The position numbers and the translations under genes were made by a program. DNA of 64,000 nucleotides from a bacterium (GTDB taxonomy: Bacteria; SZUA-79; Acidulodesulfobacterales; Acidulodesulfobacteraceae), in assembly GCA_021777135.1 (NCBI GenBank), contig JAJYDX010000002.1, forward strand, positions 92,084-156,083, in the 5' to 3' direction. The notes below the pieces were generated by a model, which ran no database searches, was not told the DNA's origin, and saw only the letters and a list, made by a program, of their open reading frames with translations. Of this stretch, positions 4,890 through 17,032 are shown one piece after another; position 1 is the first letter of the stretch; the number at the start of each line of letters is the position of its first letter.

Positions 4890-5363
4890 GTGTTTGAAAC
4901 GCCCGATATATACACTCTGGTTGCTGGAACGTCGGAGGGGACTTCAAAATTGGGGGCATTTGATAATGCCATTTTAAAAGCCGGTGTCGGCAATACTAAT
5001 TTAATAAAATTAAGCTCCATACTGCCTCCCAAGGCGGCATTCAAGGAAAAAATCGTTTATCCGCGCGGAGTGCTTGTGCCTATAGCATACGGTTCCATTT
5101 CAAGCGACAAAAAAGGTAAAACAATTGCTGCGGCAGTTGCCATTGCCATTTCGGTCGAAGAAGGATTCGGCGTTATAATGGAATATTCAGGAGAGGTTAC
5201 AGCGGATAAAGCAGAAGAAACGGTCAGGAAAATGGCGGAAGATGCAATGAAGCACAGGAATATCGAAATTAAAGAGATAAAGTCTAAAAGCTCTGAGCAT
5301 ACGGTTGAAAATTTCGGTTGTGCATTTGCCGCGGTTCCTATGTGGTATTCAAAGCTGTTGTAA
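4890..5363 (+). CDS. pdaD: Pyruvoyl-dependent arginine decarboxylase
   Basis: Decarboxylates arginine to agmatine with a covalently bound pyruvoyl group instead of PLP. The 157-residue proenzyme contains GVGNTNLIKLSSILPP; by family knowledge the chain self-cleaves between Ser42 and Ser43, turning Ser43 into pyruvate. The length and the GFGVIMEYSG block match archaeal PvlArgDC and its bacterial relatives. The start is a GTG at 4890, supported by GGAGGG 8 bases upstream. It completes an arginine-agmatine-putrescine-spermidine set with speB and speE. Confidence 0.92.
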   Translation: MFETPDIYTLVAGTSEGTSKLGAFDNAILKAGVGNTNLIKLSSILPPKAAFKEKIVYPRGVLVPIAYGSISSDKKGKTIAAAVAIAISVEEGFGVIMEYSGEVTADKAEETVRKMAEDAMKHRNIEIKEIKSKSSEHTVENFGCAFAAVPMWYSKLL

Positions 5364-5396
5364 TGTTTTATTGAAAATATTTCGTAATAAAATAAT

Positions 5397-5448
5397 AAGG
5401 AGAGGGGCCGCGCGAAATCTGTCTTTTTAAGAATTTCCGCGACCCTTG
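5397..5448 (+). promoter_or_regulatory. Shine-Dalgarno / hairpin / TTG start arrangement
   Basis: A strong AAGGAG at 5397-5402 is more than 40 bases from the first possible start (TTG at 5446), because an in-frame stop sits at 5428-5430. The space is filled by an imperfect hairpin: 5405-5418 pairs with 5433-5445 (12 base pairs, one mismatch, one bulge). Folding would bring the Shine-Dalgarno close to the TTG. Confidence 0.5.
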
Positions 5449-6471
5449 AGCGGTTTGAATAAAACCTTCGCAATATCTACATCTTTAGGATTAATATTTG
5501 TTATAGTTATAATTTTCGTAGTAGGTCCGAAAAACATACTTCAGATGATAGGACATCTGAATCTTTTGGATTTTATCGTCTTGTTCCTGCTTTCTTATTT
5601 AGCGCTTTTTTTTTCGGCACTTTCCTTAGGCAATGCTTTAAAAGTATATGATGCTAAAATAGGGTTAAAGCATATTGCCAATATTAAGTTAATTGGATAC
5701 AGCGCTAATTATATTGCTCCGTCGGGCATATTTGCAGGATTTATAGGCGGCGACGCAATTATGGCTTTAATTCTTAAAAAAAGAAGCGGACTTGAATTCA
5801 AAAGAGGTTTTTCCGCCGGTCTTGCCGCAAAGGTAATAGAGTTTGCGATGTTCCTTCTTTTTATTTATCTAGGGCTTATACTTGGCTTCAGGTATTTTTA
5901 TCTTCCTACCGAGGTATGGTATTTACTTCTTATCGCCGCAATATTCGTCGGAGCGGTTACCATGGTTTTTTTAATTAATCCTATTATAGACAACAGGTTC
6001 TTTACAAAAATATTAAGGTATTTAACTAAATTTAAAATACTCAATAAAATTATTTTTAAACTCCTTAAACATACAAACAACTTTGAAAAAGAGCTTCATA
6101 TGTTTTACGTTAAAGGAAAAAAATATCTTTTTTTAAGCCTTTTTTTAAGCCTGATTGAAACCGCGGTTCTGGTATTTCAGATATGGCTTTTAGTCTATTA
6201 TCTGGGTATTAATATGGGATTTTCAAAAACTCTTTTAGTGTTTTCAGTCTCCATGCTTGTTTTTGCGCTTCCGCTTGCTCCGGGCTCGGCTGGAACTTAT
6301 GAACTTTCGCAGGTTGGTCTTTTTGATATATTGGGGCTTGGTTCGGACGTAGGACTCGCTTTTAGTTTAATTATGAGGGCTATAAATATACTTATGGTCG
6401 CAATCTCGTTTTTTCTCGTCCCGCATTATGGATTTCATTTCTTTAAAAAACCGGAGGAGGAGGAAATATGA
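5446..6471 (+). CDS. Flippase-like / lysylphosphatidylglycerol synthase TM-region protein
   Basis: A 341-residue polytopic inner-membrane protein with roughly eight hydrophobic segments. It resembles the LPG_synthase_TM/UPF0104 family (AglD/MprF N-terminal-like), whose members act in lipid flipping or lipid-linked sugar transfer. The YxAPSGIFAGFIGGDAI and LAPGSAGTYELSQVGLF blocks are typical. Its last codons overlap the next glycosyltransferase ATG by four bases (ATGA), so the two are translationally coupled and a joint role in glycolipid assembly is likely. The start is uncertain: only TTG at 5446 or 5455 is available before the hydrophobic N-terminus, since an in-frame stop lies at 5428. 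Confidence 0.78.
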   Translation: MSGLNKTFAISTSLGLIFVIVIIFVVGPKNILQMIGHLNLLDFIVLFLLSYLALFFSALSLGNALKVYDAKIGLKHIANIKLIGYSANYIAPSGIFAGFIGGDAIMALILKKRSGLEFKRGFSAGLAAKVIEFAMFLLFIYLGLILGFRYFYLPTEVWYLLLIAAIFVGAVTMVFLINPIIDNRFFTKILRYLTKFKILNKIIFKLLKHTNNFEKELHMFYVKGKKYLFLSLFLSLIETAVLVFQIWLLVYYLGINMGFSKTLLVFSVSMLVFALPLAPGSAGTYELSQVGLFDILGLGSDVGLAFSLIMRAINILMVAISFFLVPHYGFHFFKKPEEEEI

Positions 6472-16343: not shown

Positions 16344-16381
16344 GGAGGCGGATAAAAAGTGTTATCCGAATTGACGGCATG
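16344..16381 (+). promoter_or_regulatory. Shine-Dalgarno, hairpin and start codon leader
   Basis: GGAGG (16344-16348) is immediately followed by a perfect 7-base-pair hairpin, CGGATAA (16349-16355) with TTATCCG (16362-16368). Ten bases later comes the ATG at 16379. With the hairpin folded, the effective spacing is about 10 bases, against 30 unfolded. The same bases also encode a 7-codon frame (GTG at 16359) whose stop overlaps the ATG as ATGA. Confidence 0.5.
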
Positions 16382-17032
16382 ATATTTAAAAATAGGCGTG
16401 AGGCAGGCAAGATGCTCGCGGCAAAGTTTTTCGCTGACAAGTTTGACGGCGGCAATACTGTAGTCGTAGGATTATTAAGAGGAGGTATTCCTGTTGCCTA
16501 TGAAATAGCGGCGGCTTTAAAAGCGCCGTTAGACGTTGCGTTGGTTAGGAAAATTGGCGCTCCTAATCATGAAGAACTGGCAATAGGAGCGATAGTTGAC
16601 GGAAAATCCCCCAAAGTCTATTTTAACGATTCAATTATATCGCGAATTAATATTCCATCGGGATATTTAGAGCGTATAAAACAAATTAAGCTTAAAGAGA
16701 TAAGAGAAAGAGAGAAAATATACAGGAGCGAAGGCGGAAAGATAGACGTTAGCGGTAAGACCGCAATAATAGTGGACGACGGTATTGCCACCGGCGCGTC
16801 GGTAAGCGTAGTCATAGAAGCCGTTAAGGAAGAAAAGCCCGCTAAGATAATTGTTGCGGTTCCAGTTATCGCTGCAGATACCTTAAAAAAATTGCAAAAA
16901 ACAGTTGATAAAGTGGTTGTTTTAAGCGCGCCGGAAGAGTTTTATGCCGTAGGCGAGTTTTATAATGATTTTAGTCAGACTACTGATGACGAAGTAGTAG
17001 ACCTTTTAAAAAAATCCCAAAAAAAATATTAA
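16379..17032 (+). CDS. Phosphoribosyltransferase-domain protein
   Basis: A 217-residue stand-alone type I phosphoribosyltransferase fold. The N-terminus FKNRREAGKMLAAKF and the GLLRGGIPVAYEIA block match the family that includes Rv0571c-like proteins. The PRPP-binding loop is IIVDDGIATGAS (about 138-149), and PNHEELAIGAI and APEEFYAVGEFY are also typical. The physiological substrate of this family is not established. The ATG at 16379 is chosen because it aligns with the family start, although its Shine-Dalgarno is 30 bases away across a hairpin. The DUF59 gene starts 143 bases downstream behind its own promoter. Confidence 0.85.
   Translation: MIFKNRREAGKMLAAKFFADKFDGGNTVVVGLLRGGIPVAYEIAAALKAPLDVALVRKIGAPNHEELAIGAIVDGKSPKVYFNDSIISRINIPSGYLERIKQIKLKEIREREKIYRSEGGKIDVSGKTAIIVDDGIATGASVSVVIEAVKEEKPAKIIVAVPVIAADTLKKLQKTVDKVVVLSAPEEFYAVGEFYNDFSQTTDDEVVDLLKKSQKKY

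Follow-up and report, generated by a model that had tools for sequence, protein, structure and literature searches.

In bacteriophage T4, an RNA structure shortens the distance between the Shine-Dalgarno (SD) sequence and the AUG of gene 38 from 22 to 5 nucleotides (nt) and the distance between SD and start codon of gene 25 from 27 to 11 nt, and initiation on both genes is reported to fall when the structure is destabilised (PMC3014915). The same source describes the gene 25 arrangement as present in close T-even phages and absent from distant ones (PMC3014915). In Escherichia coli, a long hairpin inside the thrS site reportedly stays folded when the ribosome accommodates it (PMC3936740). Split sites beyond those of T4 genes 38 and 25 were not found in the open-licence literature among the matches listed, mainly titles and abstract openings. 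Here it is proposed, from sequence comparison and predicted folds, that the leader of a flippase-like membrane protein gene is quite probably a split ribosome binding site like those of the two T4 genes. The gene lies in the window (the whole 64,000-nt stretch of DNA analysed, from contig C71 in a draft genome of 2.12 Mb belonging to the Acidulodesulfobacteraceae), and the split-site trick described for the phage has most likely been kept here in a group of uncultured bacteria.

The flippase-like gene, whose product matches PF03706 (E 8.5e-32), is preceded by the SD core AAGGAG, separated from the TTG at 5455 by 52 bases. The predicted duplex with the 3' end of the 16S ribosomal RNA has an energy of -8.2 kcal/mol for AAGGAG vs -1.9 kcal/mol for the bases adjacent to the start. 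This 3' end is GGATCACCTCCTTTT, with the usual anti-SD, in three relatives; a 16S gene was not found in the window's own draft genome and is present in 9 of the 30 family genomes. The intervening bases are predicted to fold into one imperfect hairpin (5403-5407 with 5443-5447, 5409-5412 with 5438-5441, 5414-5418 with 5433-5437 and 5419-5420 with 5430-5431), the folding energy of 5403-5454 being -17.8 kcal/mol. An earlier note on this DNA, made from the sequence alone, had described a stem of 12 pairs (5405-5418 with 5433-5445) ending right at TTG 5446. All 12 pairs lie within the 16 predicted here, the inner pairs 5419-5420 with 5430-5431 being additional; the stem does not stop at the codon, since the outer pairs 5403-5404 with 5446-5447 take part of TTG 5446 into it. 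The frame was described correctly: AAGGAG occupies 5397-5402, the TAA at 5428-5430 is in frame with TTG 5446 and TTG 5455, and TTG 5446 is the sole in-frame ATG, GTG or TTG between that stop and 5455. A sequencing error, considered at the time as a possible origin of the stop, is unneeded because relatives with other in-frame stops, or with none nearby, keep the same succession of SD, hairpin and start.

In the proposed mechanism, the anti-SD of the ribosome would pair with AAGGAG while the hairpin remained folded, removing most of the 52 bases from the path. About 7-9 nt would remain unpaired ahead of TTG 5455, a spacing like that of ordinary leaders, and the hairpin would act as a structural spacer permitting initiation. 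The presence of the elements themselves is established by sequence and comparison; from these we infer that the hairpin forms in vivo, that it is accepted in folded form by the 30S subunit and that translation begins at TTG 5455.

Comparison also establishes the start column. The flippase-like gene was searched for in 30 family genomes, the relatives in the collection being metagenome assemblies, and 22 genomes gave a match, with 23 copies in all. TTG 5455 aligns with the start column of the relatives, which across the 23 copies holds TTG in 13, GTG in 6 and, in the remaining 4, TTA directly preceded by TTG; all 23 copies appear to start with TTG or GTG and none with ATG. Matches to the window's reading frame begin at residue 4, the column of TTG 5455, in 17 of the 23 copies, and the window's own copy matches from residue 1. 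The next in-frame start after 5455 is ATG 5545. No copy but the window's has an in-frame start at the position of TTG 5446, and this codon is partly in the stem, so its earlier choice as the start is probably wrong and the start was probably placed 9 nt off. An upstream start is impossible in four hairpin copies (L007, L009, L010 and L022), which have a stop codon 9 nt before GTG; L008 keeps in-frame TTGs at -33 and -48, and L015 has GTG at -6 and TTG at -66. The start of the flippase-like gene is most likely TTG 5455, judging by the sequences, because its column is conserved, TTG 5446 is peculiar to the window and upstream stops occur in four copies.

The leaders of the 23 copies are of two main kinds. 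Eleven (L001, L002, L004-L010, L013 and L022) have a distal SD, a hairpin and then the start, in another eleven an SD lies 4-10 nt ahead of the start, and the remaining copy, L028, is without SD or hairpin. L006 was counted among the first kind because it has a core stem, flanked by gaps of 5 and 14 nt. For the spacing given below, GGGGGAT was taken as the SD in L007, L008, L010 and L022, and the SD of L002 was set by hand. The two arrangements alternate: a proximal SD core is found in 0 of the 11 hairpin leaders vs 11 of the 12 others (Fisher 1e-5, for related sequences and uncorrected for kinship). All 11 hairpin leaders have an SD that is too distant along the sequence and lack a usable proximal one, with predicted duplex energies of -8.2 to -9.0 kcal/mol for the distal SD and 1.9 to -4.3 kcal/mol for the bases adjacent to the start. 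Apart from these, the genus g2 copies (L016-L019) have a leader with two or three copies of a AACTCTTAAGGAGATTA-like unit, each with AAGGAG, before the TTG. In clade B (L007-L010 and L022), a conserved AT-rich stretch about 70 bases upstream of GGGGGAT exceeds the needs of a leader and could represent a promoter or an additional RNA element.

The spacing was examined in 11 leaders, with L003 included and L009, nearly identical to L007, folded separately. In nine of them the segment between SD and start is predicted to form one helix that starts 0-2 nt past the SD and ends 7-10 nt short of the start. While the linear distance between SD and start in these nine ranges over 44-77 nt, the exterior distance, counted outside the helix, stays near constant at 7-12 nt (7 nt in L001, L007, L010 and L022, 9 nt in L008, and 12 nt in L002, L004, L005 and L013). 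For scale, 153 of the 207 GGAG or GAGG motifs found within 60 nt of 416 predicted starts in the window's genome lie at 4-13 nt, with a peak at 8. When each segment was shuffled 400 times, 20-35 shuffles gave a helix in register, and for the nine passing leaders 0-8 were also equally stable (4 of 400 for the window interval). L003 fails the register test, 12 of 400 shuffles combining the register with a stability equal to that of the fold of L003 itself. The lower stems of L002, L005 and L013 open with G-C, G-C or G-U, A-U, C-G and G-C, other lineages have different stems, and the upper stems and loops vary widely, even between close species.

A FastTree phylogeny built from four proteins of the neighbourhood and rooted on genus g2 places the hairpin leaders, L003 and L028 in one clade (split support 0.96), which is most simply explained by a single gain and two losses. 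The loss in L003 took the form that a split site predicts: this leader lacks both the distal SD and the in-register hairpin, and has GGGGGAG 4 nt upstream of the TTG instead. Genome G007 holds two flippase-like copies of different clades, L005 with the hairpin and L028 without, which would reflect either an assembly of mixed strains or a duplication.

The hairpin could also be a chance intergenic structure, or an element of RNA processing or stability, with initiation at TTG 5455 making no use of the distal SD. GC-rich segments fold easily and L028 starts without SD or hairpin. In addition, a survey of the window's genome (471 genes, 610,499 bases) gave 4 matches to the arrangement vs 4.57 expected from shuffles, no excess. 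Two of the four are the window's two cases, the flippase-like gene and the phosphoribosyltransferase (PRTase) gene described below, and within the third of the genome scanned only these two have conservation behind them in the sequences compared, the other two matches being uncompared. A first scan of 312 kb, made without a control, had given 14 rows in 249 genes, the flippase-like gene included and many at internal start codons, and a relaxed scan over those 312 kb yielded 5 matches against 6.3 expected and missed the flippase-like gene. In 177,357 bases from relatives, partly chosen for these loci, there were 3 matches in 149 genes against 2.07 expected, each at a flippase-like or PRTase gene, under a rule by which known cases, L006, L008 and L075 at the least, went undetected. 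Since matches are no more than expected, the arrangement is not a general strategy; the shared initiation strategy suggested by the earlier note holds insofar as both genes show SD, hairpin and start in part of their relatives, and fails as a genome-wide one.

These readings are nonetheless unlikely. The register and the exterior spacing are kept within the clade despite much sequence change, and the strong distal SD is present in 11 of 11 hairpin leaders and mutually exclusive with a proximal one. Moreover, none of the 83 readable leaders of neighbouring genes in the same loci has the arrangement (speE 12, arginase-family gene 3, pdaD 22, first glycosyltransferase 22, second glycosyltransferase 22 and HIT 2), under a rule that finds 8 of the 23 flippase-like leaders, namely 8 of the 11 with a hairpin (L002, L005 and L006 are missed). 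As far as sequences can tell, it is conservation in relatives that lifts the hairpin above chance. Other origins for the segment were considered as well. Unlike a repeat or mobile element, the leader DNA matches only one place in its own genome (E <= 0.001), no relative was confirmed among viral contigs, and there is no intrinsic terminator at 5403-5454, the two terminator-like sites both lying at 5540-5561, one per strand.

The PRTase gene, about 11 kb from the flippase-like gene in the window, has by its sequence a probable further split leader, less clean than the first. Its predicted stem is CGGATAA/TTATCCG. Thirty PRTase loci (L063-L092) were collected and 18 leaders folded; the 12 omitted were 2 partial loci, 2 distant paralogues and 8 with <62% identity. 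One helix in register is predicted in 14 of the 18 leaders, with an exterior distance of 8-11 nt. These 14 belong to genera g1 and g5, with the addition of L070, which lies on a contig from a g2 genome with a second, less similar PRTase copy. As for the other four, an SD immediately precedes the ATG in L074 and L080, with no intervening hairpin; L078 retains the distal GGGAGG, with its stem broken and GAGG at 8 nt from the ATG; and L079 (g3) folds weakly. Ten of the 30 genomes have the hairpin pattern, each a single time and always just before the PRTase gene, and six of the 14 hairpin leaders, the window copy among them, are without any SD-like core near the ATG. On contig G001:C1 of one relative, of 9 kb, the flippase-like gene (1896-2915) and the PRTase gene (5803-6447) occur together, the latter after the second glycosyltransferase gene.

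Several observations weigh against a split site at these genes. The stability of the fold is by itself ordinary, with 39 of 200 shuffles of 5390-5460 folding as well (z -0.79). Formal covariation is weak: the observed value is reached by 124 of 500 shuffles in the five flippase-like leaders of clade B, where the lower stem hardly varies, and by 29 of 500 in an alignment of 16 of the 18 PRTase leaders examined, in which two pairs changed on both sides. The minimum-energy fold of L006 pairs across the spacer, its core stem being kept, and in several leaders the SD is predicted to be partly paired (unpaired probability 0.34 in L001 and 0.10 in L010). In L002-L006, similarity to the window's frame begins at residue 2, two codons ahead of the start column. 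The tree holds only about three independent changes, and L028, not predicted by a split site, means that the flippase-like gene can stand without both hairpin and SD. In the PRTase set, the 14 hairpin leaders include 6 with an additional SD-like core at 6-7 nt from the ATG, to which the stem end contributes a part in five, and 2 with AAGG 3 nt from the ATG; the distal SD may therefore be a second site in such leaders.

A stable hairpin adjoining the start codon of one gene of an operon, in a genome that has a csrA gene, could instead suggest a regulatory switch (a thermometer, a riboswitch or a protein site, e.g., for CsrA) that turns translation on and off, and a post-transcriptional switch was the second suggestion of the earlier note. 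No evidence for one was found in RNA-family searches and predicted folds. Within the window, only a transfer RNA scored above the gathering score in Rfam, and a local RNA-family search gave five weak matches, none touching 5403-5454. Masking is also inconsistent across the 11 hairpin leaders, the predicted unpaired probability ranging without pattern from 0.10 to 0.96 for the SD and from 0.13 to 0.59 for the start, and the geometry persists while upper stem and loop change between close species. A switch is accordingly judged very improbable.

The gene neighbourhood brings in another possibility, itself compatible with a split site. The gene order is spermidine synthase (speE), an arginase-family gene, read here as agmatinase, pdaD, the flippase-like gene and two glycosyltransferase-type genes. 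The arginase-family gene and pdaD precede the flippase-like gene in 23 of 23 copies, speE is present in all 13 longer loci, and the glycosyltransferase genes follow in 22 of 23 copies (L022 breaks off within the flippase-like gene). Spermidine, the likely product of these genes, might tune the hairpin, though there is little probability that translation responds to polyamines here. It is similarly doubtful in the extreme that the hairpin would be a spermidine-tuned sensor, through which synthesis of the membrane protein would be matched to the product of its neighbours, and there is equally slight likelihood that the distant SD and the UUG or GUG start would be used well only with a polyamine present. 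The context, together with the UUG or GUG starts, is suggestive because genes of the E. coli polyamine modulon are described as having a distant SD or UUG/GUG starts (PMC7177335). However, outgroup copies with the same neighbourhood have ordinary SD spacing, so the hairpin is unneeded for a polyamine context, and several of the hairpins are predicted to be very stable already.

Table 1. Features of the two leaders and adjoining genes in the window.
Feature	Coordinates	Strand	Basis
Distal Shine-Dalgarno AAGGAG	5397..5402	+	Seen in sequence; predicted 16S duplex
Hairpin filling the interval between SD and start	5403..5447	+	16 predicted pairs; hairpin likewise in 10 of 22 other copies
Single-stranded spacer ahead of start, 7 nt in minimum-energy fold	5448..5454	+	Predicted fold
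LPG_synthase_TM (PF03706) membrane protein, start TTG 5455	5455..6471	+	Profile match, start column
Pyruvoyl-dependent arginine decarboxylase (PF01862), pdaD, upstream gene	4890..5363	+	Upstream in 23 of 23 copies
Distal SD GGAGG of PRTase gene	16344..16348	+	Sequence
7-bp hairpin (16349-16355 with 16362-16368), 10 nt short of ATG 16379	16349..16368	+	Predicted fold
PRTase-domain protein (PF00156), putative second split leader	16379..17032	+	Profile match

If the flippase-like leader is indeed a split site, a bacterial chromosomal case would provide evidence from nature that a large folded hairpin in the interval from SD to start is accepted by ribosomes, on the basis of one gain and two losses, one of the losses accompanied by a proximal SD. 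Start finders that expect a near SD would misplace or miss such starts.

Among the known systems, the site resembles that of E. coli thrS as a proposed split ribosome binding site in which a folded hairpin would be tolerated. In thrS, the hairpin is located on the 5' side of the SD and has a role in autoregulation. With the E. coli polyamine modulon, the locus shares a distant SD and an inefficient start codon, here in a polyamine-type neighbourhood; the published description of the modulon differs in stressing bulged structures, and the SD distance given for rmf, 11 nt, is far shorter (PMC7177335). As in T4 gene 38, the structure would bring SD and start together, although gene 38 is a phage gene with a shorter interval and an AUG start. 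Compared with T4 gene 25, the flippase-like gene is a bacterial chromosomal gene, known from its sequence alone, with an interval of 44-77 nt, larger hairpins of variable sequence and a UUG or GUG start.
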